Below the pieces are notes generated by a model. It was not told the DNA's origin and ran no database searches. It saw nothing but the letters and a program-made list of their open reading frames with translations. Made by a program: the position numbers and the translations under genes. A stretch of DNA of 64,000 nucleotides from Oscillospiraceae bacterium (GTDB lineage: Bacteria > Bacillota > Clostridia > Oscillospirales > Ruminococcaceae): contig JAAVID010000006.1 of assembly GCA_014799395.1 (NCBI GenBank), positions 126,282 through 190,281 of the forward strand. The letters run 5' to 3'. Shown in pieces: positions 11,300 through 62,246 of this stretch; the stretch's first letter is position 1; the number at the start of each line of letters is the position of its first letter.

Positions 11300-11328
11300 T
11301 TGCATTTTTGTAAAAAATATGTTATAAT
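11300..11328 (+). promoter_or_regulatory. Promoter for the YwaF-like operon
   Basis: TTGCAT (11300-11305) and TATAAT (11323-11328) are 17 bases apart on the plus strand. The transcript would begin near 11335 and run through the hairpin at 11365-11397 before reaching the TTG start at 11442. Confidence 0.65.
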
Positions 11329-11364
11329 TAACTGTAAGTTACTGAAACATAGACCAATTATCAA

Positions 11365-11397
11365 GTGGTTTTCCCCGCCGCAGGCGCGGAAAACCAC
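11365..11397. repeat. Short hairpin repeat (family copy 2)
   Basis: The arms read GTGGTTTTCC and GGAAAACCAC around a GC-rich centre with one mismatch. The sequence closely resembles the hairpin at 6699-6729. It lies inside the predicted 5' leader of the next operon. Confidence 0.65.
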
Positions 11398-11441
11398 AAT
11401 AAAACACAATAAAATCGCTACTAATTTTTTGAGGTGAGAGC

Positions 11442-13062: not shown

Positions 13063-13100
13063 AAATTGTGATAGAATATCAGTAATATATTGAAATGCTT

Positions 13101-13353: not shown

Positions 13354-13370
13354 GAGAAAGGATCAAAGAG

Positions 13371-15812: not shown

Positions 15813-15816
15813 AGGC

Positions 15817-15858
15817 AAAAAATCTCCCGAGCGGCTTAATGGCTGTTCGGGATTTTTT
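15817..15858 (+). terminator. Terminator after leuS
   Basis: An imperfect stem (AATCTCCCGAGC with the later TTCGGGATT) surrounds a TTAAT loop and is followed by TTTTTTC, about 5-45 bases after the leuS stop. It resembles a rho-independent terminator. Confidence 0.75.
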
Positions 15859-15952
15859 CGCAAACGATTTTATCCGCTTGACATTTTAGATAAGGTATGA
15901 TATAATATATAAAACCACTTAATAAAACTTGCTATTGGAAAGAGGTAACGTT

Positions 15953-37162: not shown

Positions 37163-38533
37163 CTAAATTTCCAGAAACGCCGCCGCCTTAAAGGTGCTTT
37201 CGGTGAATTCAAACTGCGCTCTGCCGTTGCTGCGGCGGCATATCTCGCTGATTATCTCCGTGCCGCAGCCGTGCAGACGGGCGTTTTCCTTGGTGGTTAT
37301 GAAACGGTCGCCGTTGGTTATGGGCTTGTCCGTTATCGGATTTTCGCAGACTATAGCTAGGTACATTTTGTACTTGAAAACGCGGAGGGTTATCACGGGG
37401 TCGGGGCATTGCTCCGCCGCTTCGACGGCGTTGTCGATAATGTTCGAGAGTACGGACGACAGGTCTATCGGCGGTATCTTCGTTTCGGGGAGCGGCTCGG
37501 CGTGCAGGTCGAGCGTTATCCCGCGCTCCCCGCAGAGCGCCGCCTTTGCGGAAAGCGTAGTGTCGATAGCGGCAATGCCCGTCATTTTTTCGCCGCCGAG
37601 AGCGCTCGTCAGCCGTTCGCCCAGCTCGTTCAGCAGGCGCTTTGCCTCGGCGCTCTCGCCGCTGTCGATAAGCGCGGAGATAGTCACGATATTGTTTTTC
37701 ACGTCGTGACGGAGTTTTTGCAGCTGCCGAACGGAATTTCCGCGCTCGTATTCGGAGACCTCTCCGTCCGGAACGGGCTTGACTTCGCCGACAAGACCGC
37801 ACAGCTTCGGGAAGAACCTCAGCATTACGATAACGAGCACCAACACCGCGGCAAGCGCACCGGAGATCGCCGCGTAATCATAGGCTCTATCCTCGAAAAA
37901 CAGCAGCGAAACGAGCAGAGAAACCGCGCACAGTATCAGCGAAACGTAATTCAGCGCGCTCCATTCCTTTTTGCCGCCCGTTATGATGATACGCGTGAGC
38001 TGTCTGCACATAACTATCAGGATAACAAGCTCGAATATTTTCAGTCCCGTGCAGAAAAACAAGCGGAAAATGCCGCCGTTGTCAGCGCCGTAAAATCCGC
38101 CGACGTACTCGAAATAACGGTAGCAGTCCGCCACTGCCAAGCATATACAGCCCGCCAGCAGGTCGGAGACCGTAAACATAAACTGCGCGAGCAGCACATA
38201 AGCGGTCTTTCGGTACAGCTTATCCGAATACAGGAAGTGCAGAGAAATCGCCTCCCACAGCATTGCTATGACGTTCGCGGCGGCATAAGCAAGCGCCGAA
38301 AATTCCATAACGCAGAGCAGAGCCGCGGTTCCCGCCGCCTGAACAACGGCGCAGACGTTCACGAGGATAAATTTGTACGTTTTTCCGCGCTTTCGGAACA
38401 GCCTGCCCGCGAAAAAATACAGCAGCACCGCCTGCGCAAGATACACGGCGAAAAATTCCAAAAACAGCATAGGCTTGTACTGAAGCTCGTGAGTGTACAA
38501 TGCCTGAGCATAGAACAGATCATATTCCTTCAT
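37163..38533 (-). CDS. GHKL sensor histidine kinase (AgrC/CitA-like)
   Basis: This 456-residue protein has about seven hydrophobic spans in its first 245 residues. A phospho-acceptor region RHDVKNN follows (His276). The C-terminal GHKL ATP-binding domain has LSNIIDNAVEAAEQ (N box) and GCGTEIISEIC (a G box). Such kinases sense peptides or membrane signals and phosphorylate LytTR response regulators, as is the case for the next gene. Its start overlaps the regulator stop by four bases, so the two are cotranscribed. Confidence 0.9.
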   Translation of the reverse strand: MKEYDLFYAQALYTHELQYKPMLFLEFFAVYLAQAVLLYFFAGRLFRKRGKTYKFILVNVCAVVQAAGTAALLCVMEFSALAYAAANVIAMLWEAISLHFLYSDKLYRKTAYVLLAQFMFTVSDLLAGCICLAVADCYRYFEYVGGFYGADNGGIFRLFFCTGLKIFELVILIVMCRQLTRIIITGGKKEWSALNYVSLILCAVSLLVSLLFFEDRAYDYAAISGALAAVLVLVIVMLRFFPKLCGLVGEVKPVPDGEVSEYERGNSVRQLQKLRHDVKNNIVTISALIDSGESAEAKRLLNELGERLTSALGGEKMTGIAAIDTTLSAKAALCGERGITLDLHAEPLPETKIPPIDLSSVLSNIIDNAVEAAEQCPDPVITLRVFKYKMYLAIVCENPITDKPITNGDRFITTKENARLHGCGTEIISEICRRSNGRAQFEFTESTFKAAAFLEI

Positions 38534-39267
38534 AACAGATCGCTCTCCATTGTAATGTTATTCAGAAGCAGCTCCTGAAGCTCCTTGTAGCGCCCTCGGC
38601 TGAGCGGCAGGACTTCGCCGTTGTCGAGCGTTACGCCGTTCTTTTCGACAAGCGAAATTTTGTTCGGATTTACGATATATCCGCGGCAGACCTCGTAAAA
38701 GCCCTTGGTGAGAAATAGCTCCTCGACGTCGGCGAAACGGCTTTCCGTCAGCAGATATTCACGATTGCCCGTGTGAAGATATATTTTGCGCTTGACACAG
38801 CAGAAGTAAAACAGGTCGCCGAACGGTATTCTTATCAGTTTTTTCTCGCCGTTCGCGATTATCTCGCAGGAATACGCCTCGGGGGAGAATTCGCGGTATT
38901 CGCGTATCACCCGCACAAGCTCGCCGACTATATTTTCGGGAGCGCTGTCCTTGGTGATAAACGCGTTTATGCGGTAGGGAATGGTGTTGTAGACCTCGTC
39001 GCGGTAGGATGTGGCGAACACCAGAAAAAACGTCGAGCTGATAAGCCTGAGTTTCGCTGCAAGCTCTTTTCCGTTGAGCCGCGGCATATCGATGTCGAGT
39101 ATCACGAGGTCGAAGCCGTCCTCGGAAAAGCGCTCGAGGAGCTGTCCGCCGTCCGTGAAAAAGCTGACGTGCGCGTCTGCCGCCGATTGCTTTACGGCGC
39201 TTTCGATAAGCGGTCGGAATACGTTTTTCAGAAAATCGGGATCGTCGTCGCAAACGGCTATTTTCAC
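38530..39267 (-). CDS. LytTR response regulator
   Basis: This 245-residue protein has a receiver domain with acidic residues VCDDD (5-9) and phospho-acceptor Asp58 in VILDIDMPR. A LytTR DNA-binding domain follows (about 140-240, with IPFGDLFYFCCVKRKIYLHT and NPNKISLVEKNGVTLDNG). It pairs with the GHKL kinase. LytTR domains bind two 9-bp direct repeats 12-13 bases apart, and exactly such a pair (39394-39423) lies between this gene and the divergent acyltransferase gene. Confidence 0.92.
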   Translation of the reverse strand: MKIAVCDDDPDFLKNVFRPLIESAVKQSAADAHVSFFTDGGQLLERFSEDGFDLVILDIDMPRLNGKELAAKLRLISSTFFLVFATSYRDEVYNTIPYRINAFITKDSAPENIVGELVRVIREYREFSPEAYSCEIIANGEKKLIRIPFGDLFYFCCVKRKIYLHTGNREYLLTESRFADVEELFLTKGFYEVCRGYIVNPNKISLVEKNGVTLDNGEVLPLSRGRYKELQELLLNNITMESDLL

Positions 39268-40590: not shown

Positions 40591-41346
40591 TTAATCGCTC
40601 TTTTTATGCTGCATTTTGGCGGCATAATTCTTCGGCGAACACCCGAAATTCTTCTTAAAAACCCTCGAAAAATACAACGGCTCCGCAAACCCGCAGACAT
40701 ACGCTATCTGTGAAATATTCTGCTCGTCGCCGTTCGTGGAACAAAGCAGCTTCTCCGCCATCTGCATGCGCAGGCTTACCAGATAGTTGTGCGGAGTCAT
40801 GCCCATTTCGCTCTTGAACAGCTTCCTCAGATAATCATAGCTGAACGGTATAGTTTTTAAATAGGTATCCAGCTCGTAATCGCAGTCGGTAAAGTTCTGC
40901 ATAATGTTGCTCTTTATCGCGCCGATAACGTTCCGCAAGGGCTTGGTGCTCTGAAACGCTATAACATAGTTCACGATAAGATTTCCAAACGCGGCGATTA
41001 TCAAATGATGATTGTTTATCTTGCCGTTGAAGTAATAAAAAGCGTCGTTGAACGCGTTAAGTATGTGGTGGTCGCTGTCGTCGGAGATGACGATAGGCAC
41101 CTTGAACGGCAAAGTAGCGTCGGTTATATTTATGTGTATATTGGTAAACCCCTGCTCGCTGTTGTTGGTGTGGGGGATAGCGGGGGGGATTATCACAATG
41201 TCCCCCTCGGCGTATTTCATCGTGCGGTCGTCAAACACAAATTCCCCGCTCCCGCCCGTGCAGTAAATCAGTTCCCAGTTCTCGTGAGAATGAAGATGCA
41301 TTGAAAAGGTTATCAGATTTTTTCCGACATAAGTTATATTGTTCAT
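40591..41346 (-). CDS. AraC family regulator with cupin sensor
   Basis: This 251-residue protein has an N-terminal cupin-like sugar-sensing domain (HLHSHENWELIYCTGG near 16-31, then IIPPAIPHTN). A C-terminal AraC helix-turn-helix pair follows (about 155-248), with SQIAYVCGFAEPLYFSRVFKKNFG as the second motif. I chose the ATG at 41346; GGTGTGC lies upstream. It follows the pectinesterase gene on the same strand and lies at the edge of the pectin locus, so it is the best candidate pectin regulator. No operator was identified. Confidence 0.88.
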   Translation of the reverse strand: MNNITYVGKNLITFSMHLHSHENWELIYCTGGSGEFVFDDRTMKYAEGDIVIIPPAIPHTNNSEQGFTNIHINITDATLPFKVPIVISDDSDHHILNAFNDAFYYFNGKINNHHLIIAAFGNLIVNYVIAFQSTKPLRNVIGAIKSNIMQNFTDCDYELDTYLKTIPFSYDYLRKLFKSEMGMTPHNYLVSLRMQMAEKLLCSTNGDEQNISQIAYVCGFAEPLYFSRVFKKNFGCSPKNYAAKMQHKKSD

Positions 41347-41512
41347 AATGCACACCTTTCATATGTAACGTGTAACACGATTTACATTTCCCGCAGTAGT
41401 AATATGCCCTAATTGACCTGTTGAGATTTGGACATATTTCACAATTTTATAAAAAACAGTTGAAAAAGGCAAAACAATATGATATAATCCAAATATAGTG
41501 TAAAGGATTACA

Positions 41513-42424
41513 TCAGCGCTCTGTGAAATAGTTCAGCAGGGCGTCCTTTTCGGAGACGGTAAGCTCGCGGCTCCACGGAACTCTTCCGTCACGCGGCACT
41601 CCGTATTCCGCAAAGCGCGCGGTCTTGTCGCGTTCGGTATCGTTCCATTTGTCGAAACCCTCAGCAGCTATATGCAAGCCGTAGTCGCAGTCGATAAAGG
41701 ACGATTTCCCGTAGTCGCGCCACGGTCTCGCAAGGTATATCGAACCGTCCGCAACGCGTTCGTCGCGTGTAAAGCGGCAGCGGTCGAATACAAACCCTAT
41801 CTCCTGCTCGAGCGCGTGCGCGGGAGCGGCGGTGTAGCCGTGACCCCTCACGTCGTACAGCGACTTTATCTCGCAGTTTTCAAACAGCGCGTCGCCGCAG
41901 CCGAAGATAAAGTCCACGGTCCCCGCGATAAAGCAGTTCTTGTAGACCTGCCGCGAGTAACCCTCGGTGCGGAGCTCGCCTTTGAGAAAGCCGTCGTATC
42001 TTATTATGAGGTCGGGCGGCAGAGGTCCGCAGAAGATAGTGTCCTGGGTCGAAATGAAATTGCAGTTCTCGGCGCGGAAATCGTCCGCGTATACCGTAAG
42101 CGCGACCTCCTGCCCCTTTTCCTCGGGCTTGAGCGCGTCGTTCTCGACGGTGAGGTTTTTAAAGGTGACGTGCGGCGCTGTAACGGCGATGGTGTAGGTG
42201 CGGAAGGTGACGTACTCCTTGCCGTCCTCGTGTATCTTGTTGGCGTAGTCGTCATAGACGATGACCGTTTTGTCCGTACCCGCTCCGACGAGCTCTATGT
42301 ACGGAACGGATATTTCCGGTTTCTGCCTGTAAACGCCCTCGGAGAGAATGACCCGGGTGTGCGGCTCGGAATTATTGATGACCTCGTTGAGATCGTCTTT
42401 TGGAGAGACTGTTATTTCTTTCAC
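41513..42424 (-). CDS. Cytoplasmic pectinesterase (CE8)
   Basis: This 303-residue protein has the CE8 motifs STQDT (Asp128), GTVDFIFG (Asp171) and LARPW, and a right-handed beta-helix pattern. It removes methyl groups from galacturonate residues. There is no signal peptide, so it should act on imported methylated oligogalacturonides. I chose the GTG at 42424, with AAAGGGGAAG upstream; the in-frame ATG six codons earlier (42442) has no ribosome site. It is divergent from the pectin transporter operon across a 400-base regulatory region. Confidence 0.9.
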   Translation of the reverse strand: MKEITVSPKDDLNEVINNSEPHTRVILSEGVYRQKPEISVPYIELVGAGTDKTVIVYDDYANKIHEDGKEYVTFRTYTIAVTAPHVTFKNLTVENDALKPEEKGQEVALTVYADDFRAENCNFISTQDTIFCGPLPPDLIIRYDGFLKGELRTEGYSRQVYKNCFIAGTVDFIFGCGDALFENCEIKSLYDVRGHGYTAAPAHALEQEIGFVFDRCRFTRDERVADGSIYLARPWRDYGKSSFIDCDYGLHIAAEGFDKWNDTERDKTARFAEYGVPRDGRVPWSRELTVSEKDALLNYFTER

Positions 42425-42651
42425 AATTTCTTCCCCTTTCATGACCGAAAAAGTAATGTTTTCTCTTACCTTTGATTATACTATGACAGATGTCCGTTTT
42501 TCAATAAGTAATGTTAAAGTTTGTGAAAATCAAACAATAACGGCGCAAAAATTTGTAAACAATCGTCAAAATTTGTTGAAAAACGAAATAAATAAAATTT
42601 GACCCAAAAAGTCTAATGTCCGAAAAGTGCATAAATTGTCTTGTATTTGTA

Positions 42652-42845: not shown

Positions 42846-43436
42846 ATGAACAATATAAGCTTTAAGCAATACAGGGCGATCGACTTGGGTATTCTGGCGG
42901 TCATTCTGGTTGCCGCCGAGATGATAACGGCAAAAGCCGCAAGCTCGTGGTTTCCCGCGGAGTTATATATGCTTTCGCCCGCTATCGCTTTGATCTGCAT
43001 AGTGATGATGCGGTGGGGCGGATTTGCCGCGATACACGCTGCCGCGGGAGGCGCGGCGTATTGTCTGGCGCTTGGCGCGTCCGCGGAGCAGTTCGCGATA
43101 TACTGTGCGGGCAACTGTTTCGCGCTGATCTCGCTGATACTTATAAAGGCGCTCGGCAAGCAGAAAATAAGAGACAGCGTTGTGTTGACCATTGTTTATA
43201 CGGCGCTGACGTATATCGGAACGGAGCTCGGAAGAGGGCTCGTAAGTCTGATTTTCGGGATGACGATAGATTCGATGCTCGCGTTTTTTGTGACCGATTC
43301 GCTTTCGTTGGCGTTCGCGGTGGTGGTAGTGCTTATCTCACGGAGGGTCGACGGGCTGTTTGAGGATCAGAAAGCGTATCTCATACGCACCGAATCGGAG
43401 CGCAGACGCGCGCAGAGCCCCGATAATTTTGAGTGA
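42846..43436 (+). CDS. Membrane protein of unknown function, pectin operon
   Basis: This 196-residue protein has about six hydrophobic spans with small residues and a basic, arginine-rich tail. Its layout (short, five to six spans, AEMITAKAASSWFPAELY after the first span) recalls ECF transporter S components, but no S-component signature is clear. I chose the ATG at 42846 (MNNISFKQYR); the in-frame ATG at 42828 has no better ribosome site. It precedes the sugar permease gene by 51 bases and is probably the first gene of the operon. Confidence 0.55.
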   Translation: MNNISFKQYRAIDLGILAVILVAAEMITAKAASSWFPAELYMLSPAIALICIVMMRWGGFAAIHAAAGGAAYCLALGASAEQFAIYCAGNCFALISLILIKALGKQKIRDSVVLTIVYTALTYIGTELGRGLVSLIFGMTIDSMLAFFVTDSLSLAFAVVVVLISRRVDGLFEDQKAYLIRTESERRRAQSPDNFE

Positions 43437-43487
43437 CGAAAAATGTTAATATAGCTCGAAAATATCATTTTTTAGGAGGTTTCAAAT

Positions 43488-44537
43488 ATGCAAAATGTTT
43501 CCGACTATTTGATTTTTGATGCGGAAAGCGGTACCTACATCGAAAATCCGGAACAGGTCGTTCGCGATGATGTTGAAAAGCATTATTGGCTGAACGTGGT
43601 GAGAGCGATCGTAAAGGACTGGCGTTTGTATCTTATGCTCGTCCCGATGCTCGCGGTATTCCTGCTTTGGCGTTATCTGCCGATGTACGAGCTGCTCGGA
43701 TGCTTTAAGGTAACGGATAGCGTAAAGCCCGTTGCCGAGCAGTACTATTCGGGATTTTCCTACTTCAAGACGCTGATCGCGGGTACGGGTACTCTTACGA
43801 CCGAGTTCTGGAGGGCGTTCAGAAACACGTTCCTGCTGAGCTTCTACGGTCTGTGCTTCGGTTTCCCGATGCCGATCATCATCGCGCTGTTCTTCAATGA
43901 GATCCGCTCGAACGTTATGCGCAGTATTTACCAGGTAATTACATATTTGCCGAAGTTTATGTCGACGGTTGTAATGACGTCGCTGGTAATGATGCTTGTA
44001 AAGCAGGGCTCGCTGACTTCCGGTACGGGTATCATTTCGCAGCTTCTGGTCAAGATAGGCGCTATCACCGAGGAAGCGGCGTACAGCGGTCTTATGAACA
44101 ACCCGAGCTTCTTCAGAGCTATCTATCAGATAAGCGGTATCTGGGAGACCGCGGGTTACGACAGCATAGTGTTCTTCGCGGCGATCATCGCGATCTCGCC
44201 TACGAGCTATGAGGCGGCACAGATCGACGGCGCGGGCAAGCTGGCGCAGATGAAGTACGTTGTTTTGCCGAGTATCCTTTCGACTATCGTAATTATGCTT
44301 ATTACGAGAATAGGTTCGCTTCTTAATGTCGGCTACGAAAAGGTTCTCCTTTTGTACAACACGAACACCTATGTTACCGCGGACGTTGTTTCGACGTTCT
44401 CTCAGAGATACGGTATCGGTGGTACAATGACGGGTCTTGCCGCCGCCGCCGAGATGATGAACAACGTTATAGGAATGCTGTTGGTTATCGGCGCTAATAC
44501 GATCGCTCGCAAGGCGTCCGATGTATCACTCTATTAA
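43488..44537 (+). CDS. ABC transporter permease, LplB/YteP-like
   Basis: This 349-residue permease has a cytoplasmic N-terminal extension of about 45 residues, then about six spans. The ATPase-coupling EAA loop YEAAQIDGAGKLAQMKYVVLPS lies near 240-260. It belongs to the MalF/LplB-type binding-protein-dependent sugar permeases. The second permease follows by 11 bases, and the pair should pass galacturonate-containing oligosaccharides. AGGAGG precedes the ATG. Confidence 0.93.
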   Translation: MQNVSDYLIFDAESGTYIENPEQVVRDDVEKHYWLNVVRAIVKDWRLYLMLVPMLAVFLLWRYLPMYELLGCFKVTDSVKPVAEQYYSGFSYFKTLIAGTGTLTTEFWRAFRNTFLLSFYGLCFGFPMPIIIALFFNEIRSNVMRSIYQVITYLPKFMSTVVMTSLVMMLVKQGSLTSGTGIISQLLVKIGAITEEAAYSGLMNNPSFFRAIYQISGIWETAGYDSIVFFAAIIAISPTSYEAAQIDGAGKLAQMKYVVLPSILSTIVIMLITRIGSLLNVGYEKVLLLYNTNTYVTADVVSTFSQRYGIGGTMTGLAAAAEMMNNVIGMLLVIGANTIARKASDVSLY

Positions 44538-44548
44538 AGAGGTTTGCT

Positions 44549-45439
44549 ATGAAAAGACGACTTGAAATTTCCGAGCTTATATTCAAAATTATAAGCTACA
44601 CGCTGCTTACGATATTCGCGATCTGCTGTCTGTATCCTTTCCTGTACACGATCTCGGCTTCGATAAGCGGCAGAGAAGTGGTTGACTACAACCGACTGGT
44701 GCTTTTCCCTAAGGACATACAGTTTGACGCGTTTAAGGGTATGTTTGGCAACAATATGTTCTGGAACGCGTATACAAACACCCTGTTCTTGACGTTCTAC
44801 GGAACTATCTGGGAGGTTTTCCTCTCGGTTCTCGGCGCGTATGCGCTGTCCAAGAAGAGACTGTTGTTCCGCAAGGGCTTCAACTTCTTCCTGGTATTCA
44901 CAATGTGGTTCAGCGCGGGTCTTGTACCGCAGTATTTGAACTATATCGCGACAAAGAAGGTATTCAACGCGGTCGGCATTATGGACGACAAATGGCTTGT
45001 CGTTATCGCGATGGGTATGGCGGCGATGAACATCATTCTGCTTCGTAACTCGTTTGAGGGCGTACCCAGCGAGATCGAGGAGGCGGCTATTATCGACGGA
45101 GCGACCGAAATGCAGGTCCTCTGGAGAGTATATCTGCCGATGAGCAAATCCATACTCGCGACGGTATCGCTGTTCTTTGCGATCTCCCGTTGGAACGGAT
45201 ACTTCTGGGCAAGACAGATGATCTCAAACGGCAACGAGCAGCCGCTGATGGTTTATATCCGTCTGCGCCTTGAGCAGTATACCGACCCCGATCAAATGGC
45301 GGGTTGGGACTATCCGTATTCTTCGGACTCCGTTATCTACTCGCTCATCATTTGCTCGATAGTGCCTATCCTTATTATTTATCCCTTTATCCAGAAATAT
45401 TTCGCAAAGGGCGTAAATGTAGGCGGCGTAAAGGAATAA
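44549..45439 (+). CDS. ABC transporter permease, LplC/YtcP-like
   Basis: This 296-residue protein is the MalG/LplC-type partner permease. It has six spans, with the EAA loop EEAAIIDGATEMQVLWRVYLP near 172-192. With the upstream permease it forms the membrane channel. It ends with a hydrophobic span and the short tail FAKGVNVGGVKE, typical of this family. Confidence 0.93.
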   Translation: MKRRLEISELIFKIISYTLLTIFAICCLYPFLYTISASISGREVVDYNRLVLFPKDIQFDAFKGMFGNNMFWNAYTNTLFLTFYGTIWEVFLSVLGAYALSKKRLLFRKGFNFFLVFTMWFSAGLVPQYLNYIATKKVFNAVGIMDDKWLVVIAMGMAAMNIILLRNSFEGVPSEIEEAAIIDGATEMQVLWRVYLPMSKSILATVSLFFAISRWNGYFWARQMISNGNEQPLMVYIRLRLEQYTDPDQMAGWDYPYSSDSVIYSLIICSIVPILIIYPFIQKYFAKGVNVGGVKE

Positions 45440-45488
45440 TATCACACACGATAATCAGCCGCATTCCGCGGTTGGTATATAAAAAGCA

Positions 45489-45508
45489 ACAGCGGGCAAT
45501 TGTCCGCG
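45489..45508 (+). promoter_or_regulatory. Intercistronic hairpin before the binding lipoprotein
   Basis: GCGGGCAATTGTCCGC forms a 6-bp stem around AATT just upstream of the lipoprotein ribosome site. Such hairpins often raise expression or stability of the binding protein relative to the permeases, but no effect is shown here. Confidence 0.4.
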
Positions 45509-45534
45509 CACAATCCTGAAGGAGGAACAACACA

Positions 45535-47724
45535 ATGAAGAAATCAAAACTTGCGGCGTCACTGCTGGCAGTTACCGTGTCGTTATCCACATTGCTGACA
45601 GGCTGTACGACCGTACCCGATACGTCGTCCAATAACAGCTCGTCCAATGGCTCGTCTAACGGCGGCAACACAAGCTCTGACAACAACAGCAACGCAGGCA
45701 ACGACAACAGCACACCCGATTCCAACCCCGGTACAGACGCTCCCGCGTTGGAGTTCGCACAGGGTACTGTTCTGAGAATGGCTACGGGTTACAACAGCGC
45801 GAAGACCGGTTTGTTTTTCGATGCTGAAACAGCAGGTTCGGGTATAACTCTTGCTGACGGCAAAAGCTATGGTACAGGTGACCTCAAGCCTACTTGGGTA
45901 GCTATTCAAAACAAGCTCGGTATGACATTTGAGGACAAGTATCAGGGCAACAGCGCTTCCAAGGAGTGGGATTACTGGAAGGAAAGACTTTCCGAGGTAG
46001 ATATGGTATGCGGAAGCGCTTCCACTCTTAACGACGCAGGCGCTGCGGGAATGGTTGTCGACCTTGCTCAGTATCTCGACCAGATGCCCGACTTTAAGGC
46101 ATATCTTGAAGCTAACCCCATCGTTCGTCTGTCTATCGCAGGTGACGACGGTAATGGCGGCATCAGCTCTATCTACTTTGCTCCGTACTTCGACGGTGTA
46201 GACGATATTGAGCGTATGCCTTTGATGAGAACCGACTGGGTACAGAAGCTCCTCGACGGCGACGGCGCATTTGAGGCAGCGAGCAGCGGAACTACCGCAA
46301 CTCCCGCATATCAGCCTTATATGCCCACAGAAGGCACGGTTTCTATCGACGTAGTAGAAAAGGACGGCAAGACCGTTAAGACTATTACAAAGGATTATAA
46401 CACTGCCGGCAACATCATCGCTAAGATGAACGAAGCAGGCTCTATGAGCGGCGTTGACGCTGTAAATATGCTCCGTACGTATATCGATGAGGCATACGGC
46501 GGATACTACGGAACCACTCGTTCCGACCTGTTCTGCGGTCAGAACGCTGCTTGGGACGCTGACGAGCTGGTTGCTCTGCTCCGCTGCGTAGTAGCTAACG
46601 CTCAGACGCTCAACGGCACCGACTCTGTCCAGGGTATCTTCTCCCGTGAGGATAACAACAACCAGAGACGTGTTGATATGTTCCGTTTCGCGGGCACTCT
46701 GTTCGGCGTTCGCGGTCTCGAGTCCAGAATGGACTATCTGTATGTAGGCAACGACAATAAGCTCCACGACGCTCGTCAGGAGGAAGCGACCTACGTTGCT
46801 CTCGAGAGAATGAACGATATGGCTAAGGAAGGTCTGCTCTCCAAGTCCTTTATGGACAACTCCGAGGAAAGCTCCGAGACAATGCTTGAGAACGACCTCG
46901 GCTTTATGCACTACGACTACAACCAGACTCAGACCCTCTACAACCAGAGCAAGCTCCAGGAGGGCGAGAAGTATATGGCAGCTATGGTTCCCGTTGCACG
47001 TTGGGATGACGGCACAGGCGAGCAGTTTATGAGATTTACCGAGTCTTGGCGTTCCGTTAAGACCGACGCTTGGGCTATCTCCGCTGCGGGTGTTGAGGGC
47101 GACCAGGATAAGCTGAACGCGGCTCTGTCCCTGATCAACTACGCATTCAGCGAGGAAGGTCAGATCATGATGTCTTACGGTCCCGAGGAATTCAGAAGCA
47201 CCGAGACATTCAACTTCAACGGCAAGGAAATGCCCAAGATCTCCGACGCAACTTATCAGGAGCTTTGGGACAAGGGAAAAGGCAACTATACCAACTACGC
47301 TCGTTATTACCTCGGCTCTACTCTGAGCTTTGTAAAGAGCCAGGCGTTTGAGTATCAGTGCACACACGAGGTCGGCAGAGAGGGCGCAGGCTACATCTCC
47401 AACGCTATCGCTGCGGGCACTATCAAGCACCCCCTGCTCGCGCTTGCGGATAATCCTTGGTACACCTCCGTTCCTACCGTTCTCCCGAACTCCAAGTCTG
47501 AAACCGACCAGATCAACAGCTTGGCAGAGCTGACAAGCAACGGTAAGTTCAGTTCGTCTAAGGATCAGAGCAATCTGTTCGTAGACATCATCGTTGGCGG
47601 CTTCTCCGGCGAGGGCACTACTTCCGCAGCAGAGTGCGCAAAGACCGTTGCAGATACTTGGGGCGGCTCTCAGTACCTCCAGCTCAGAAACATCGCTTGG
47701 GATCTTCTTCTCAGCGAGTTCTGA
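45535..47724 (+). CDS. Large ABC transporter substrate-binding lipoprotein, pectin type
   Basis: This 729-residue protein has a lipoprotein signal (LTGC, Cys24), a Ser/Asn/Gly-rich linker to about 70, and a long two-domain binding-protein fold. It is larger than usual binding proteins (about 400-550 residues), as is common for the LplA/YtcQ group that carries rhamnogalacturonan or galacturonan fragments. AGGAGGAAC precedes the ATG. It follows the permease genes and is the obvious substrate-capturing component. Confidence 0.92.
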   Translation: MKKSKLAASLLAVTVSLSTLLTGCTTVPDTSSNNSSSNGSSNGGNTSSDNNSNAGNDNSTPDSNPGTDAPALEFAQGTVLRMATGYNSAKTGLFFDAETAGSGITLADGKSYGTGDLKPTWVAIQNKLGMTFEDKYQGNSASKEWDYWKERLSEVDMVCGSASTLNDAGAAGMVVDLAQYLDQMPDFKAYLEANPIVRLSIAGDDGNGGISSIYFAPYFDGVDDIERMPLMRTDWVQKLLDGDGAFEAASSGTTATPAYQPYMPTEGTVSIDVVEKDGKTVKTITKDYNTAGNIIAKMNEAGSMSGVDAVNMLRTYIDEAYGGYYGTTRSDLFCGQNAAWDADELVALLRCVVANAQTLNGTDSVQGIFSREDNNNQRRVDMFRFAGTLFGVRGLESRMDYLYVGNDNKLHDARQEEATYVALERMNDMAKEGLLSKSFMDNSEESSETMLENDLGFMHYDYNQTQTLYNQSKLQEGEKYMAAMVPVARWDDGTGEQFMRFTESWRSVKTDAWAISAAGVEGDQDKLNAALSLINYAFSEEGQIMMSYGPEEFRSTETFNFNGKEMPKISDATYQELWDKGKGNYTNYARYYLGSTLSFVKSQAFEYQCTHEVGREGAGYISNAIAAGTIKHPLLALADNPWYTSVPTVLPNSKSETDQINSLAELTSNGKFSSSKDQSNLFVDIIVGGFSGEGTTSAAECAKTVADTWGGSQYLQLRNIAWDLLLSEF

Positions 47725-47789
47725 TTTCCACGGCATTTATTCCTTAATTTAACGCGGCGCCGTTTCGGCGGCGCTGCCTAATCCACATT

Positions 47790-47829
47790 ATGTTATCGAG
47801 GGGGAGACGTCCTCTCCCCCTCTCAACAT
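47790..47829 (+). promoter_or_regulatory. Strong hairpin after the binding lipoprotein
   Basis: ATGTT...GAGGGGGAGA pairs with TCTCCCCCTC...AACAT around a CGTCC loop, in the gap between the lipoprotein and the next gene. It has no T-run, so it may protect the upstream message from 3'-5' decay or reduce readthrough into the downstream genes. Confidence 0.6.
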
Positions 47830-47843
47830 AAAGGAAGGTCTGT

Positions 47844-48434
47844 ATGTATAAGAAACAAATGATTTTTCAGCGCATAGTGTGCGCCGCGATGCTTATTGCA
47901 GCCGCTTTGGTATTCGTCTATTCTTTGGGTCTTATGACCGATCTTTATGATAGCCTGTATACCACTATCCGCAGCCCAAGCAACCTTGACAAAACAACGG
48001 TTCCGGGTTCGCGTATTTACTACGATATGCAGGGTTTCAACAGTCAGTTTACGAACGTGTCTATCGTACTTATTCTTGTGACACTGTTCTTGTTTGTTAC
48101 AAATACTCATTCCCGCAGAAAATACTATATCGGTAATTTTATCGCGATAGGTCTGTCTGCGGTATGCAACATCGGCGTGTCCGTCTGGACGCTCGGTCAG
48201 ATAGCAGCGTATAAGGCACAGTTTTTGCAGATCGATTTCGAGGCGCTTAAAACGCATTCGGAAACGATGAAAACGCTTTACACGGATTCTACTTTCTGGT
48301 TCGACGTAAGCTATGGAGTTTTCGGACTTCTGCTTCTTATGACGGTTCTGCTTGTTGTTAATTTGGTTTTGAAACTAATCGTGATGAAAGAAGAAAAGCG
48401 CCTTATCGGCAGCAGAAAGGGAGTGGGGGCATGA
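47844..48434 (+). CDS. Four-span membrane protein, pectin operon (A)
   Basis: This 196-residue protein is not recognised. It has four hydrophobic spans (about 13-32, 74-90, 99-119 and 150-175), with a conserved-looking extracellular loop (DSLYTTIRSPSNL) between spans 1 and 2, and a basic tail (EEKRLIGSRK). AGGAAGG precedes the ATG. Its stop overlaps the next ATG (ATGA), so it is coupled to another small membrane protein and, through it, to the ATPase gene. Confidence 0.65.
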   Translation: MYKKQMIFQRIVCAAMLIAAALVFVYSLGLMTDLYDSLYTTIRSPSNLDKTTVPGSRIYYDMQGFNSQFTNVSIVLILVTLFLFVTNTHSRRKYYIGNFIAIGLSAVCNIGVSVWTLGQIAAYKAQFLQIDFEALKTHSETMKTLYTDSTFWFDVSYGVFGLLLLMTVLLVVNLVLKLIVMKEEKRLIGSRKGVGA

Positions 48435-48931
48435 ATTTCAACAACGAAGCCATGATCAAAAAGGACAGGCTCAGATATACCAAAAACAAGCTCTCCTCAA
48501 ACCTTACTCTGCTTGCGATATTGATCAACGCTTTCTATTTTGTCAGTATCTATAAATCCGATGTGGGTTCGTACTATTACACCTATATAATCGGAATTTC
48601 CGTTATTTACAATCTGCTTTTTATGCTTATCGCGTTCCTTTCCTCCGAGGGAGTAAAGACGTATAAGGTCGGCTATTCATTTGCCCTTATAGCGATAGGG
48701 ATCGGGCAGATAATCCGCATTTTCATTATCCCCATGAACGCAAATCAGACGGTTTTGTCTCTTGGCGGAGAGGAAACGGCGGTAATGGGCGGCTTACAGT
48801 TCGTTTATGTATGCGTTTGTCTGGTAGCTTCGGCGGCGCTGTGCGTTATTGCGGGTGTTATCAACATAATCAAAGCCCGCACGCTCGCGGAGCATCAGGC
48901 TGAAATTGATAAAATAGCAAAAGGGAGCTAG
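48431..48931 (+). CDS. Four-span membrane protein, pectin operon (B)
   Basis: This 166-residue protein is not recognised. It has four hydrophobic spans and polar ends; the start (IKKDRLRYTKNKLSSN) is positively charged, suggesting a cytoplasmic N-terminus. It overlaps the preceding gene by four bases and ends two bases before the ATPase gene, so it is cotranslated with both. Confidence 0.65.
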   Translation: MNFNNEAMIKKDRLRYTKNKLSSNLTLLAILINAFYFVSIYKSDVGSYYYTYIIGISVIYNLLFMLIAFLSSEGVKTYKVGYSFALIAIGIGQIIRIFIIPMNANQTVLSLGGEETAVMGGLQFVYVCVCLVASAALCVIAGVINIIKARTLAEHQAEIDKIAKGS

Positions 48932-48933
48932 TC

Positions 48934-49998
48934 ATGAGTGATTTAAAATTACAGCACCTCGACAAGATTTATGACAATAAAGTCCAGGCGGTATTCGATT
49001 TTAACCTTGACGTCAGAAACGGAGAACTTATCGTACTTGTCGGACCATCGGGCTGCGGAAAATCAACAACGCTCCGTATGGTCGCGGGTCTTGAGGACAT
49101 CTCCGCGGGCAACCTCATAATCGACGGCAAGGACGTTACGAAAATGGCGCCCAAGGATCGCGATATTGCCATGGTTTTCCAGAACTATGCGCTGTACGGG
49201 CATATGACGATCTATGAGAATATGGCGTTCTCGCTTATGCTGCGCAAGGAAAACAAGAACGAGATACATCAGAAGGTACTGTCGGCTGCCGAGATACTCG
49301 GACTTACCGACCAGCTGAATAAAAAGCCGAACCAGCTTTCGGGCGGTCAGCGGCAGAGAGTTGCGATGGGACGCGCTATCGTTCGTACTCCCAAGGTATT
49401 CCTCTTCGACGAGCCGCTTTCTAACCTTGACGCTAAGCTCCGCGGCGCGACACGCCGTGAGATACTGCTCCTGCACAAGAGGCTTCGCGCGACAATGCTT
49501 TATGTAACGCACGATCAGACCGAGGCGCTGACGCTCGCGGACAGGATCGTATGTATGTCGATGGGTCACGTTCAGCAGATAGGTACTCCTCTCGAGCTGT
49601 ACGATACTCCCGCAAACCTTTTCGTAGCCGGCTTTATCGGACTTCCTCCGATGAACTTCTTCGACGTTGAGGTAAAGAACGGCGAGCTTATCTGCGACAG
49701 CTTTAAGGTTGCGCTTAGTCCCGATGAAAAGGGTTCGCTTGAGCGTTACGACGGTCAGACGATCACTCTCGGTGTGCGTCCCGAGGATATTGCCGAGGGC
49801 GGAGACATAAGCGTAAACGTATTCTCCAACGAGAATTTGGGTCAGACCACCCTTGTAAACGGCGTTGTGGGAAAATACAGAATAACCTGTAAATTCCGTG
49901 AGTGGTGTACTTACAAGGCAGGCGATACGGTCAATGTTTCTTTCAAGAAAAAGCATTTCTTCGACAAGAAAACGACCGACGCTATCAATTTAAGATAA
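48934..49998 (+). CDS. UgpC/MsmX-type sugar ABC transporter ATPase (1)
   Basis: This 354-residue protein has Walker A GPSGCGKST (37-45), signature LSGGQRQRVAMGRAI, Walker B FLFDEPLSNLD and the switch His in THDQTEA. A C-terminal TOBE-type domain (LGVRPEDI) follows. It hydrolyses ATP for oligosaccharide import. Family members are often shared by several sugar transporters (MsmX in Bacillus). It is placed among the small membrane proteins of the pectin operon rather than next to the permeases. Confidence 0.95.
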   Translation: MSDLKLQHLDKIYDNKVQAVFDFNLDVRNGELIVLVGPSGCGKSTTLRMVAGLEDISAGNLIIDGKDVTKMAPKDRDIAMVFQNYALYGHMTIYENMAFSLMLRKENKNEIHQKVLSAAEILGLTDQLNKKPNQLSGGQRQRVAMGRAIVRTPKVFLFDEPLSNLDAKLRGATRREILLLHKRLRATMLYVTHDQTEALTLADRIVCMSMGHVQQIGTPLELYDTPANLFVAGFIGLPPMNFFDVEVKNGELICDSFKVALSPDEKGSLERYDGQTITLGVRPEDIAEGGDISVNVFSNENLGQTTLVNGVVGKYRITCKFREWCTYKAGDTVNVSFKKKHFFDKKTTDAINLR

Positions 49999-50011
49999 GG
50001 AGGCGTGACAG

Positions 50012-50578
50012 ATGGCTCAAAAAACGTCCGCCAAGCCAAGGCGAGGAGTAAAAGAATCTATCCGTAAGTTTTTCGTTTCTCTGAAACGCGCTCCGCAGAA
50101 TATTGCGTTGGTAGTGCTTGCGGCAGCGTTCATCGTTTATTCGCTGAACCTTACGTCCATAGCGGATACGACTGCGAAAGTAAACCTGGCTAATATGGGT
50201 CAGTGTGAGTTTGCGGCAATGCTGTTCTCAATTCTGGCGTTTGTCTGCTTTTTGAGAGCGTTTCCGAAACGTCAGAAGCCAAGCGTGGCTATGATCGTGC
50301 TTGTGTTTGTAATGCTGGCTATCTTGATAGGCGTTGATGTCGTATATTACAGCAGAATAATTCAGTCGGTTGCCTCCGGAACGGTGATAGACTCTAAGAC
50401 GGCATATATTGCCATTGCGCAGAACGTTATAGTTGTACACATTGTACTTGTGGCGGCAACTGCGGTTCTGCTTGCTACGCTTCCTTTGTACTCCAAGGTA
50501 CTCAAGAAGATCAATACCTCTATTGACGTTGAGGACAACGGCGAATTGGAAGCGATCGATATTTCCGGCGAAGAATAA
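50012..50578 (+). CDS. Four-span membrane protein, pectin operon (C)
   Basis: This 188-residue protein is not recognised. A basic N-terminus (AKPRRGVKESIRKFFVSLK) precedes four hydrophobic spans, and the tail is acidic (SIDVEDNGELEAIDISGEE). AGGAGGCG precedes the ATG. It follows the ATPase gene by 13 bases. The mixed charge (basic start, acidic end) is unusual for a transporter subunit and may mark a contact surface. Confidence 0.62.
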   Translation: MAQKTSAKPRRGVKESIRKFFVSLKRAPQNIALVVLAAAFIVYSLNLTSIADTTAKVNLANMGQCEFAAMLFSILAFVCFLRAFPKRQKPSVAMIVLVFVMLAILIGVDVVYYSRIIQSVASGTVIDSKTAYIAIAQNVIVVHIVLVAATAVLLATLPLYSKVLKKINTSIDVEDNGELEAIDISGEE

Positions 50579-50588
50579 TATTCAATGA

Positions 50589-50617
50589 GGAAGCAACAGC
50601 AGTCCGAGTAGGCTGTT
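50589..50617 (+). promoter_or_regulatory. Intercistronic hairpin
   Basis: GCAACAGCAG pairs with CTGTTGTTGC around an eight-base loop, between the third and fourth small membrane protein genes. A weak CTTTC follows. It may be an attenuator or stabiliser. Confidence 0.5.
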
Positions 50618-50649
50618 GTTGCTTTCATTGCAAATAAGGATAGGCGTTT

Positions 50650-51276
50650 ATGGCAAAGAATTCAAACAAAAACAAGAAAACCGAGACTACCGCGGACTAT
50701 TACAACTTAAAGACCGAAGCGGTCGATAAGCTCGTGAACGCGAAAGACGCGCCCGAGGTCAGCGAGGCGGAAATACGGAAATATACCTCAAAGGGCAAAT
50801 TTTACATTCCCTCCTGGCTCAAGATCTTATTTGTGAAATTTTGGTTCAGCGGAGCAATTTGTTACTTCTTCCTTTGGGGTCTGGGTTTGTATTTGCAAAA
50901 TCTGGATCTTATGGTGGCGTTGGCAATAGGTCTCGGACTTGTGACAGACCTTATGGTAAACCACGTTCTTCATACGTTTGAGCCCACGCCGGGCGCGTAT
51001 GACAAGTGGATGATGGTGCCGTTCAGGAAGTTCTGGACGCTGTTTGTGAACATCATTTACGCGGGCGTGCTGCTGTTCTGTGTAATGCAGGCTTATAATG
51101 TCATAAATACTGTTCTGGTAGGCGATGTCAGCACCGCCGAGTCCGTTGCGGTGGGCGTTGAGCCGCTGCTGTTCGGACTGCTCTATATGGGCTTTGATAT
51201 GCTCTTTATCACGATAAAGAACACATTTGTAAAGATATTCCGCGACGCGGAAAAGAAGGTATCGGGAAATAAGTGA
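50650..51276 (+). CDS. Four-span membrane protein, pectin operon (D)
   Basis: This 208-residue protein is not recognised. About 55 hydrophilic residues (Lys/Asn/Glu-rich) precede four hydrophobic spans, starting near residue 58, and the tail is basic (FRDAEKKVSGNK). AAGGATAGG precedes the ATG. Its stop overlaps a GTG of the GH28 frame, but I place the GH28 start further downstream. The set of four such genes together with the 42846 gene is described in the findings. Confidence 0.62.
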   Translation: MAKNSNKNKKTETTADYYNLKTEAVDKLVNAKDAPEVSEAEIRKYTSKGKFYIPSWLKILFVKFWFSGAICYFFLWGLGLYLQNLDLMVALAIGLGLVTDLMVNHVLHTFEPTPGAYDKWMMVPFRKFWTLFVNIIYAGVLLFCVMQAYNVINTVLVGDVSTAESVAVGVEPLLFGLLYMGFDMLFITIKNTFVKIFRDAEKKVSGNK

Positions 51277-51290: not shown

Positions 51291-52832
51291 ATGATCAATG
51301 TATTATATGCGGGTTCGGTATCCGCTTGCTTTGAACTGGAAAATAATACCCCTTATTACAGCGGGGAAGAATATACCGTAAGACTGAACGGCGAGGAGGT
51401 CATGACGTCCGACAGGAACGTCTTTTCGCTTTATCCGCTCAAGCCGAATACGGAATACACTATCGAGGTCGACGGTCACGATCCCGTGCATTTCACGACG
51501 ATAAGCGAGGCGTGCGCGGTGAGCGTCAAGGATTTCGGCGCTGTCGGAGACGGCGTTCACGATGACACCGAGAACATTCAGACGGCGGTGAATTGCCTGC
51601 CGCAGGGAGGACGCCTGTACTTCCCCGAGGGAACATACAGCACCGCGCCGATAAACCTCAAGAGCCACATCACGCTAGACCTTGCGGAGGGCGCGGTACT
51701 GCTCGGTTCGACGGACGAATCGAAGTACCCCGTTATCCCCGGAACCGCGAAGGATATTGTAACGGGCGAGGAAGTGCACGTCGGAACGTGGGAGGGCAAC
51801 GCCATACCGATGCATCAGGCGCTGCTGTTCGCCGAGTACGCCGAGGATATACGTATCGTCGGAAAAGGCACGGTCGACGGAAACGCGCAGAACAGTCAGT
51901 GGTGGGTGAACGTCAAGGAAAGAACGATCGCGAGACCGAGACTTGTTTTCTTCAACCGCTGCAAGGACATCACGCTGCACGGTATCACAGCGCAGAACGC
52001 CGCTTCGTGGCAGCTGCACCCGTATTTTTCGCAGAAGCTGGACTTCCTCGACGTTTCCATTAACGCGCCGAAGAACAGTCCGAACACGGACGCGCTCGAC
52101 CCCGAGGCTTGCGATTACGTTAATATTATCGGCTGCAAGTTCAGCGTGGGCGACGACTGTATCGCGATCAAATCGGGCAAGATAGAGCTTGGACGTAAGT
52201 TCAAGCAGCCCGCAAATCATCACACTATCCGCAACTGTATTATGCAGTTCGGTCACGGAGCGATAACGCTCGGCAGCGAAATGGCGGGCGGCGTCAAGAA
52301 CCTCACCGTAAACCGCTGCATTTTCGCTCATACCGACCGCGGACTGCGTATCAAAACGCGCCGCGGAAGAGGTAAGGACGCGATAATTGACGGCGTATTG
52401 TTCGAGAATATCAAAATGGACGGAGTGCTCACTCCGATCGTTATAAATATGTGGTACAACTGCTGCGACCCCGACCGCTTCTCCGAGTACAACACGACGC
52501 GCGAGAAGCTGCCCGTGGACGACAGAACGCCGTATCTGGGCAAGTTCACGTTCCGTGATATGGTGTGCGAGAACTGTCACGTTGCGGCGTGCTACTGCGA
52601 CGGACTGCCCGAAATGCCTATCGACGAGATCACGGTGGAGAATATCAGGTTCACCTATGACGAGAACGCGCAGGAGGGCGTGCCCGCAATGAAAAACAAC
52701 GCGGAGAAGCTCTGCCGTTCGGGTATGTACTTTGACAACGTTCGCAAGCTGACCGTGAAGAACGTACAGATCGACGGCTGCGTGGGCGAACCGCTTACCG
52801 CAAATCACGTTGACGAGCTGATAAAGGAGTAA
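51291..52832 (+). CDS. Cytoplasmic polygalacturonase (GH28)
   Basis: This 513-residue protein has an N-terminal fibronectin-type-3-like segment (about 1-75), then a right-handed beta-helix. The GH28 motifs are NTD (265-267), GDD (287-289), GHG (321-323) and RIK (353-355), so the catalytic residues are complete. It hydrolyses alpha-1,4-galacturonan bonds. With no signal peptide it should act on imported oligogalacturonides. I chose the ATG at 51291, with GGGGAGA six bases upstream, over the GTG at 51273 that overlaps the upstream stop. Confidence 0.92.
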   Translation: MINVLYAGSVSACFELENNTPYYSGEEYTVRLNGEEVMTSDRNVFSLYPLKPNTEYTIEVDGHDPVHFTTISEACAVSVKDFGAVGDGVHDDTENIQTAVNCLPQGGRLYFPEGTYSTAPINLKSHITLDLAEGAVLLGSTDESKYPVIPGTAKDIVTGEEVHVGTWEGNAIPMHQALLFAEYAEDIRIVGKGTVDGNAQNSQWWVNVKERTIARPRLVFFNRCKDITLHGITAQNAASWQLHPYFSQKLDFLDVSINAPKNSPNTDALDPEACDYVNIIGCKFSVGDDCIAIKSGKIELGRKFKQPANHHTIRNCIMQFGHGAITLGSEMAGGVKNLTVNRCIFAHTDRGLRIKTRRGRGKDAIIDGVLFENIKMDGVLTPIVINMWYNCCDPDRFSEYNTTREKLPVDDRTPYLGKFTFRDMVCENCHVAACYCDGLPEMPIDEITVENIRFTYDENAQEGVPAMKNNAEKLCRSGMYFDNVRKLTVKNVQIDGCVGEPLTANHVDELIKE

Positions 52833-53987: not shown

Positions 53988-55391
53988 ATGACAAAAATAA
54001 AGATCGCCTATATCGGCGGCGGCTCAAAGGCTTGGGCGAGAGTGTTCATGACCGATCTGGCGCTGGCGGAGGGCTTGTGCGGCGAGATAGCGCTGTACGA
54101 TATTGACGTTCCCGCCGCGGAGCTTAACCAAAAGATTGGCGCGAGGATAAACGAAGACCCGAACACCGTGTCCAAGTGGGATTACAAGGTGTATACGGAC
54201 ATCGGCGCGGCACTCGACGGCGCGGATTTCGTGGCTTGCTCGATTTTGCCGGGAACGTTCGACGAAATGGAGAGCGACGTTCATCTCCCCGAGGAGTACG
54301 GGATATATCAGTCGGTAGGCGATACGGTGGGTCCCGGCGGAGTTCTCCGCGCTATGAGGACCGTGCCGATATACGAGGGCTTCGCGCGCGAGATAAAGGC
54401 GCACTGCCCCGAAGCGTGGGTCATCAATCTGACTAACCCGATGACGGCTTGCACAAAAACGCTGTACGACGTTTTCCCCGAAATAAAGGCGTTCGGGTGC
54501 TGTCACGAGGTTTTCCACGCGCAGGAGTTTCTGTGCTGCGCGGCGCACGAGATACTTGGCGTTGAGCGTCCCTCGCGCAAGGAAATGATAATCGACGCGT
54601 GCGGCGTCAATCACTTCACCTGGATAACCGAGGCGAATTACAACGGCACGGATATGCTGAAAGTCCTGCCGAAGTTTATTGATAAATTCTACGACAAGGG
54701 TTACTGCGAGCGCATTGACGTTGCGCCCGACGACTATCACAACGACCCGTTTTTGTACGGAAACAAGGTCAAAATGGATTTGTTCCGTCGGTTCGGAGTG
54801 CTGGCGGCGGCGGGAGACCGTCACCTTGTCGAGTTTATGAATAACTTATGGTACATCGGCGACAAGGCTGCCGTGGACGAATGGCAGTACCACCTGACGA
54901 CCGTCGCGTACCGCAAGAACGACAGAGTAAACAAAATAGAGCAGTCCCGCCGTATCGCGAACGGCGAGGAGAAGATAGACGTGAAGCGGAGCGACGAGGA
55001 GGTCGTGGAGCTGATGAAGGCTCTGCTGGGACTTATCCCGCCGACCGTTTCAAACGCGAATATCGTCAACGTCGGGCAGATGGCGGATATGCCGCTCGGC
55101 TCGGTAGTCGAGACGAACTGCGTATTCTCGCGCGACAGCGTAAAGCCGATAGTGGCAAAGCCGCTTCCCAAGGACGTAAACGCGCTCGTGCTGAGAAACG
55201 CCGTCAACATCGAGAACACCTACTACGGAATCAAGGAACGCGACTTTGGGCGTATCTTTGAGGCGTTCGCAAATCAGCCGCTTTGCTCGGGATTGAAGCT
55301 TTCCGACGCGCGCGAGCTGTTTACAAGAATGGTAAAAGCGACGGGCGAGTATCTGAAAGAATATTTCCCGCTCGACAAACCGATATTATGA
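53988..55391 (+). CDS. GH4 family hydrolase, alpha-galacturonidase-like
   Basis: This 467-residue protein has the NAD-binding start IAYIGGGSKAWARVF and the NLTNPM motif. The metal-binding CCHEVFH (Cys/His) and GVNHFTW (His) follow, as in GH4 enzymes. These use NAD+ and Mn2+ to open alpha-galacturonides by a redox elimination mechanism. Given the neighbours, a galacturonide substrate (as for LplD of Bacillus) is more likely than glucoside, but this is inference. It overlaps the next gene by four bases (ATGA). Confidence 0.9.
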   Translation: MTKIKIAYIGGGSKAWARVFMTDLALAEGLCGEIALYDIDVPAAELNQKIGARINEDPNTVSKWDYKVYTDIGAALDGADFVACSILPGTFDEMESDVHLPEEYGIYQSVGDTVGPGGVLRAMRTVPIYEGFAREIKAHCPEAWVINLTNPMTACTKTLYDVFPEIKAFGCCHEVFHAQEFLCCAAHEILGVERPSRKEMIIDACGVNHFTWITEANYNGTDMLKVLPKFIDKFYDKGYCERIDVAPDDYHNDPFLYGNKVKMDLFRRFGVLAAAGDRHLVEFMNNLWYIGDKAAVDEWQYHLTTVAYRKNDRVNKIEQSRRIANGEEKIDVKRSDEEVVELMKALLGLIPPTVSNANIVNVGQMADMPLGSVVETNCVFSRDSVKPIVAKPLPKDVNALVLRNAVNIENTYYGIKERDFGRIFEAFANQPLCSGLKLSDARELFTRMVKATGEYLKEYFPLDKPIL

Positions 55392-61142: not shown

Positions 61143-62246
61143 ATGGCTTATTTAACATTAAAAGGAATTAACAAGATCTACCCGAACGGATTTCACGCTG
61201 TTCACGACTTCAATCTGGAGATCAACAAGGGCGAGTTTATCGTTTTCGTAGGCTCGTCGGGCTGCGGAAAGTCTACAACTCTGCGAATGATCGCGGGTCT
61301 GGAGAACATCAGCAGCGGCGATTTCTTCATTGACGGCGACAGAGCGAACGAAAAGGGACCGCGTGAGCGCGGAGTAGCGATGGTTTTCCAGAGCTACGCG
61401 CTTTATCCGCATATGTCGGTATACGAGAATATGGCGTTTGGTCTTACGCTCCAGGGCGTTGACGACGACGTTATCGAAAAGCGTGTTCTTAACACCGCGA
61501 AGATACTCGGACTTACCGAATATCTCGACAGAAAGCCGAGAGCGCTGTCGGGCGGTCAGCGCCAGAGAGTTGCGGTAGGACGCGCTATTATCCGTAAGGT
61601 CGACATCTTCCTTATGGACGAGCCGCTGTCTAACCTCGACGCGAAGCAGAGAGTTACGATGCGCTCCGAGATCACACAGATCCACCGCGAAACGGGCGCT
61701 ACAACTATCTATGTAACGCACGACCAGACCGAGGCTATGACAATGGCGGACAGAATAGTCGTTATGAAGGACGGTTATATCCAGCAGGTAGGTACGCCTT
61801 ACGATCTGTATTTCAATCCCGTGAATATGTTCGTTGCGGGCTTTATCGGAGAGCCGCCTATGAACTTTATCAACGCTAAGGTAAACGACGGCAAGATCAA
61901 CATAGGCGAGACCGTTCTCGACCTTGAGGCGGTTGCGGATAAGGACGTGCTGAAAAAGTACGAGGGCGAGGAGATCGCGTTCGGCTTCCGTCCCGAGCAT
62001 ATCAAGCTCGTCGGCAAGGATGATGAGCGCAAGGCGTACACCATTCCCTGTACCGTAGAGCTTACCGAGCTTCTCGGCGACAACACCAACGTTTATGTTG
62101 ACATTCGCGGCGTAAAGACCATTCTTAAGGTCGATCCGCATGATTCTCCCGCGGTAGACGCGAAGATGAGCTTTGCTATCCCGTTTGAGAACGTTTATCT
62201 GTTCGACCTGGAGACCGAAAAGCGTATCAAGCTGAGAGAACAGTAA
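61143..62246 (+). CDS. UgpC/MsmX-type sugar ABC transporter ATPase (2)
   Basis: This 367-residue ATPase has Walker A GSSGCGKST (37-45), LSGGQRQRVAVGRAI, FLMDEPLSNLDAK and THDQTEAMTMADRIV, then a TOBE domain. It is the second such ATPase in the pectin locus and is clearly a paralogue, not a copy, of the one at 48934. It may energise other sugar transporters with no own ATPase, such as the orphan binding protein at 22814 (inference). It overlaps the following MATE gene by one base (TAATG). Confidence 0.94.
   Translation: MAYLTLKGINKIYPNGFHAVHDFNLEINKGEFIVFVGSSGCGKSTTLRMIAGLENISSGDFFIDGDRANEKGPRERGVAMVFQSYALYPHMSVYENMAFGLTLQGVDDDVIEKRVLNTAKILGLTEYLDRKPRALSGGQRQRVAVGRAIIRKVDIFLMDEPLSNLDAKQRVTMRSEITQIHRETGATTIYVTHDQTEAMTMADRIVVMKDGYIQQVGTPYDLYFNPVNMFVAGFIGEPPMNFINAKVNDGKINIGETVLDLEAVADKDVLKKYEGEEIAFGFRPEHIKLVGKDDERKAYTIPCTVELTELLGDNTNVYVDIRGVKTILKVDPHDSPAVDAKMSFAIPFENVYLFDLETEKRIKLREQ

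Follow-up and report, generated by a model that had tools for sequence, protein, structure and literature searches.

The 64,000-nucleotide stretch of Oscillospiraceae DNA analysed here (the window) carries, on the plus strand, a cassette of nine genes in which five small membrane proteins, designated S1 to S5, accompany the two permeases (PermA and PermB), the substrate-binding protein (SBP) and the ATPase of an ATP-binding cassette (ABC) importer for pectin fragments. S1-S5 are probably subunits of one enlarged oligogalacturonide importer, a reading in which the physical complex is what we infer. The cassette comprises S1 (42846..43436, 196 residues), PermA (43488..44537), PermB (44549..45439), SBP (45535..47724), S2 (47844..48434, 196 residues), S3 (48431..48931, 166 residues), ATPase (48934..49998), S4 (50012..50578, 188 residues) and S5 (50650..51276, 208 residues), followed by genes of the GH28, GH88/105 and GH4 families. 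The original prediction had placed five open reading frames of 166-208 residues at the starts 42846, 47844, 48431, 50012 and 50650, four of them around the ATPase gene, and all were found as described: S2 and S3, whose reading frames share 4 bases, precede the ATPase gene, and S4 and S5 come after it.

Conservation and exclusivity of the nine-gene cassette

A genome collection was scanned with an S5 alignment, which resulted in 139 pattern matches, of which 128 were confirmed and 80 loci kept; with the addition of G026 (L017) and G248 (L021), 82 loci were scored. The complete ordered set of nine genes was present in 59 of them. Three further loci showed all nine genes with blemishes, namely a PermB in two pieces (L057), a run of N in PermA (L088) and a fusion of S2 and S3 (L092), and the remaining 20 start at a contig end, where no more than 321 bases precede the first gene recognised. 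Since S5 was the criterion for choosing the 80 loci, its presence in them is no evidence, but S1-S4 and the gene order still count. Conservation with pectin transporters in relatives, which had been proposed as a check, did not refute the prediction, as the five genes accompany the transporter wherever the extent of the locus allows judgement. In each of the 62 loci reaching S1, the operon contains these five genes in addition to those of the Type I core.

All nine genes were also found in G477, which belongs to a different family, and the identity of the S proteins among the 59 clean loci drops to 25-30%. S1 is reached in 60 of the 80 loci, and in these, adjacent genes share one strand. Their median gap, with starts taken from called reading frames, lies between -4 and 12 bases in five gene pairs out of eight and amounts to 77 bases for PermB-SBP, 121.5 for SBP-S2 and 52.5 for S4-S5. 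According to the record titles, the loci belong to Oscillospiraceae, Lachnospiraceae, Erysipelotrichaceae, Chloroflexi (L075, L096) and Bacteroides (L030), and the nine-gene form occurs in Clostridia and relatives from rumen, rabbit and other guts. For L030 the label or the binning is probably wrong, because its cassette nests beside an Oscillospiraceae one in a quick tree.

Within the genomes sampled, S1-S5 occur with this importer only. Of 100 genomes of the family, 32 showed PermA matches at E <= 1e-20, with an identity of at least 63% in five (G000, G015, G035, G094 and G026). The same five showed a credible S3 match, and a sixth match, in G062, was weak (E 0.007); in G015 the cassette is scattered over broken contigs, where no S1 was found. 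The PermA relatives that come next share no more than 44% identity. Among ten neighbourhoods of such relatives inspected, two of which (L153, L154) lie where the contig stops at the permeases so that one side is not visible, none had an S gene and none a MalK-type ATPase adjoining the permease pair, and an SBP-profile match stood beside the pair in four. In a quick PermA tree, four non-cassette rows split off with a support of 100 on long branches. Strong S5 matches were present in 4 of 391 genomes of the class and, among 398 genomes of the phylum, only in that of the window itself.

The membrane proteins and their links to the core importer

The core shows the features of a Type I importer, namely two BPD_transp_1 permeases with an EAA loop, an SBP lipoprotein and a MalK-type ATPase. 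PermA (AlgM1-like) and PermB (MalG/UgpE-like) both exceeded the cut-off of Pfam PF00528 (BPD_transp_1), and the coupling loop EAA...G.........V.LP could be read in both sequences; the consensus quoted in PMC5730181 has I in place of V. By sequence, the closest solved relative of PermA is AlgM1 (E 1.7e-62). For the SBP, a protein of 729 residues with a signal and a lipobox Cys read from the sequence, it is AlgQ2 (E 1.2e-7), and AlgQ1 was matched too, over part of the length; the SBP reached no Pfam SBP family. The ATPase, of the MalK/UgpC type, scored 449 bits against the UgpC model (cut-off 432), and both Walker motifs (A and B), the signature and the H-loop could be read intact in its sequence. 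Its lineage is distinct from that of a second, MsmX-like ATPase (61143..62246, plus strand), which is 55% identical over the matched part and was present within the available stretch of 39 of the 80 loci. The two kinds differ at 45 positions, where at least 93% of the 77 cassette ATPases carry one residue and at least 70% of the 39 second ATPases from such loci carry another. On the 3' side of the SBP gene, hairpins with an unbroken stem of at least 7 are predicted in 59 of 70 loci (without shuffled control), in the window at 47754..47777 and 47798..47822 on the plus strand, the latter being a putative internal terminator. They resemble the internal terminators that set the SBP excess in cellulolytic Clostridia, as outlined in PMC9045158.

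Hydropathy indicated four spans for S2-S5 and five to six for S1, in agreement with the four or more spans first assigned to each protein. The N and C ends of S2-S5 would both lie inside (hydropathy and K+R counts). Conserved loops lie on the outside in S2 and S3, two of them in S2, which also carries a conserved inside loop (RR.YY..N); in S4 and S5 the cytosolic ends are long and conserved, comprising a basic N end and a conserved C tail in S4 and an N end of about 54 residues in S5. The predicted model of S5 shows four long membrane helices and no clear structural match. In three loci (L021, L092, L101) the S4 frame comprises 314-316 residues; in L021, more than 100 of these form an additional hydrophobic N-terminal segment.

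Compared to the closest relative, L023, the ratio of nonsynonymous to synonymous substitution rates (dN/dS) was 0.132 for S1, 0.126 for S2, 0.127 for S3, 0.081 for S4 and 0.084 for S5; the core genes showed 0.08-0.11 for the permeases, 0.22 for the SBP and 0.03 for the ATPase. These low values, together with the wholly conserved gene order, indicate that S1-S5 are real genes. DUF624/YesL proteins are small membrane proteins of pectin clusters. The Pfam model of this family had no match to S1-S5 of the window at E <= 1, and it was also absent from the full family lists of the S1 and S5 members; the lists of the S2-S4 members run to 25 entries each.

Several features connect the S proteins to the core and to each other. 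PermA has an N-terminal extension in which all 63 cassette sequences scored, and none of 10 others, carry the motif [VI]RD[DE].E[KR][HN].W, a pattern that was relaxed following initial inspection. After removal of the PermB distance, the pairwise distances of 59 loci correlated with those of the ATPase at 0.68 for S1, 0.57 for S4 and 0.62 for S5, and at 0.71 between S4 and S5, compared to -0.04, 0.27 and 0.13 for S1, S4 and S5 with the SBP. S2 and S3 showed a weaker contrast (0.40 and 0.54 with the ATPase versus 0.33 and 0.33 with the SBP). Since the loci are related, these correlations are no more than suggestive. The fusion in L092, a single frame of 367 residues, suggests that S2 and S3 are in direct contact.

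The predicted model of S1 has the fold of an S component of energy-coupling factor (ECF) transporters, which, like the PermA motif, is an addition to the original prediction. S1 belongs to no known S-component family: none was among the 10 Pfam families matched by 63 members at E <= 0.1, none was matched by the S1 of the window in NCBIfam, and an S1 profile found no S component in the PDB at E <= 10. In S components, an AxxxA motif in helix 1 serves for docking to EcfT. Helix 1 of S1 contains no conserved AxxxA, and any AxxxA within the first 40 residues occurs in 27 of 63 members. S1 further carries an invariant extra cytosolic tail, a helix with the pattern DG..E.Q..Y..R. No EcfT is present at the locus, and the sole CbiQ/EcfT-family gene of the genome sits on another contig. 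Strong S1 matches were confined to the cassette (2 of 291 genomes).

Proposed importer and alternative explanations

In the proposed machine, an enlarged Type I ABC importer built from all nine gene products, the SBP lipoprotein would hand galacturonide chains to the AlgM1/AlgM2-like PermA-PermB pair, which would be powered by the dedicated MalK-type ATPase and surrounded by S1-S5 as obligate membrane subunits. S1 would most likely adjoin PermA, with its tail and the N-terminal motif of PermA as candidate contacts, and S2 and S3 would form a pair. The extra subunits may make the permease wider or steadier for long acidic chains and bind the ATPase to it. An accessory membrane complex for uptake, sensing or ATPase docking had been proposed before; the association with the importer is well supported by co-conservation, and a physical complex, a docking of the ATPase, sensing and any effect on gating are putative.

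The assignment to pectin is backed by the adjoining genes of the pectinesterase, GH28, GH88/105, GH4, KduI and KDPG-aldolase families. GH28 or GH105 was present in 72 of the 80 loci, often immediately 3' of S5. Of the eight others, four (L028, L029, L063, L101) end less than 4 kb from S5. L071 has a pectinesterase nearby, and the scanned surroundings of L083 and L093 showed no pectin family. L087 has KduI upstream, but since GH13 and GH31 genes follow its cassette (11836-15896), its substrate may differ. The genome of the window (assembly 97.75% complete) has its sole pectinesterase and its sole GH28 at this locus, and PF00544 pectate lyase, the only lyase family searched, was not found in it. 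No signal peptide was evident in the GH28 of the window (crude hydropathy test) or in the pectinesterase (read from the sequence), and strongly hydrophobic N ends occurred in 0 of 69 GH28 and 3 of 68 GH105 proteins (same crude test). This is consistent with an uptake of chains that other gut microbes have produced: they would enter uncut, still esterified if methylated, and would then be cleaved inside by pectinesterase, GH28 and GH105. That the chains are long is likewise a presumption.

The missing signal peptides, the frequent position of the GH genes directly behind S5 and the long cytosolic ends of S4 and S5 would also suit assembly factors, or membrane anchors of a metabolon in which the pectin enzymes of the cytosol are kept where the transporter releases its substrate. 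Since the five S genes are kept in L071, L083, L087 and L093 without GH28 or GH105 in the available stretch, and the transporter is indicated by the fold of S1, by the motif in PermA and by the distances that follow the ATPase, this explanation appears unlikely. Less likely still is a sensing module reporting transport or substrate to the locus regulator. An AraC-type regulator adjoins the cassette in the window, similar proteins (by eye) lie near it in L015 and L019, a histidine-kinase-type ATPase domain is encoded nearby in L071, and the outside loops of S2 and S3 are conserved; against this, S1-S5 of the window showed no signalling domain at the cut-off, and the weak S4 matches to HisKA_7TM (11 of 79) and 7TMR-DISM (7 of 79), among those listed, resemble shared hydrophobicity.

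Two further explanations start from the S-component-like S1. S1-S5 and the dedicated ATPase could form a second importer that shares only binding protein and regulation with PermA-PermB, which could be served by the MsmX-like ATPase of 39 loci. We give this little credence, as the gene order interleaves both sets, PermA has cassette-specific features and the only CbiQ/EcfT-family gene lies on another contig. That gene could instead provide a shared EcfT module for S1 as a true S component for a small molecule, merely co-regulated here. This is the least probable explanation: S1 lacks a family match and a conserved AxxxA, has the invariant extra tail and occurs strongly only within the cassette, and S2-S5 would be left unexplained.

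Thus, S1-S5 as subunits of the enlarged importer is the explanation that we favour. A bolder form of it is tentative, namely a hybrid architecture for long acidic polysaccharides in which a binding-protein-dependent Type I permease forms a permanent unit with an S subunit of the ECF type and with four previously unseen membrane subunits. If true, two importer classes held separate would be joined in one architecture. ECF transporters consist of an S component and an ECF module (PMC10368641); the cassette differs by an SBP-dependent permease and the extra conserved cytosolic helix of S1, and by having no S-component sequence family, conserved AxxxA or EcfT in the locus. According to PMC7658222, a Type I importer consists of a binding protein and of two domains each for the ATPase and the membrane part. 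This picture would be altered by a conserved nine-gene form that includes five unknown membrane proteins, one of them S-component-like. Such a form would further hint how polyuronate chains cross the membranes of Gram-positive gut bacteria and make it directly testable whether ECF S folds act outside ECF transporters.

Among known systems, the alginate importer of Sphingomonas sp. A1, a Type I importer of uronate chains, is not known to have counterparts of S1-S5. It comprises AlgM1-AlgM2-AlgS with AlgQ1/AlgQ2 (PDB 4tqu, 4xig), with likeness in PermA (AlgM1) and SBP (AlgQ2), the SBP having 729 residues versus 490-516 in the AlgQ1/AlgQ2 chains. The galacturonide importers YtcQP-YteP and YesOPQ of Bacillus subtilis share with the cassette the substrate class, a binding protein, two permeases and a MalK-family ATPase, but are powered by a shared MsmX, and the available part of PMC5730181 names no extra membrane proteins. 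The non-cassette PermA relatives found here share this lean form.

Neighbouring genes

The enzyme genes directly behind S5 on the plus strand encode a GH28 polygalacturonase family protein (51291..52832), a GH88/GH105 family protein (PF07470; 52835..53965), by family an unsaturated galacturonyl hydrolase, and a GH4 family enzyme (53988..55391). They are followed by a Mem_trans-family carrier, a short-chain dehydrogenase, a KDPG aldolase and a sugar kinase (by eye), then by a TIM-barrel isomerase-like protein, KduI and, as the end of the locus, the second MsmX-like ATPase. In L083, a second large gene (10651-13056, 802 residues) with an SBP-profile match and no Pfam family lies directly 3' of S5. 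Beside the cassette, the minus strand carries the AraC-type regulator and the pectinesterase (CE8; 41513..42442) within 40591-42442. Upstream of the locus, at 37163-39267 of the minus strand, a membrane histidine-kinase-like protein and a LytTR-type response-regulator-like protein were recognised by eye.
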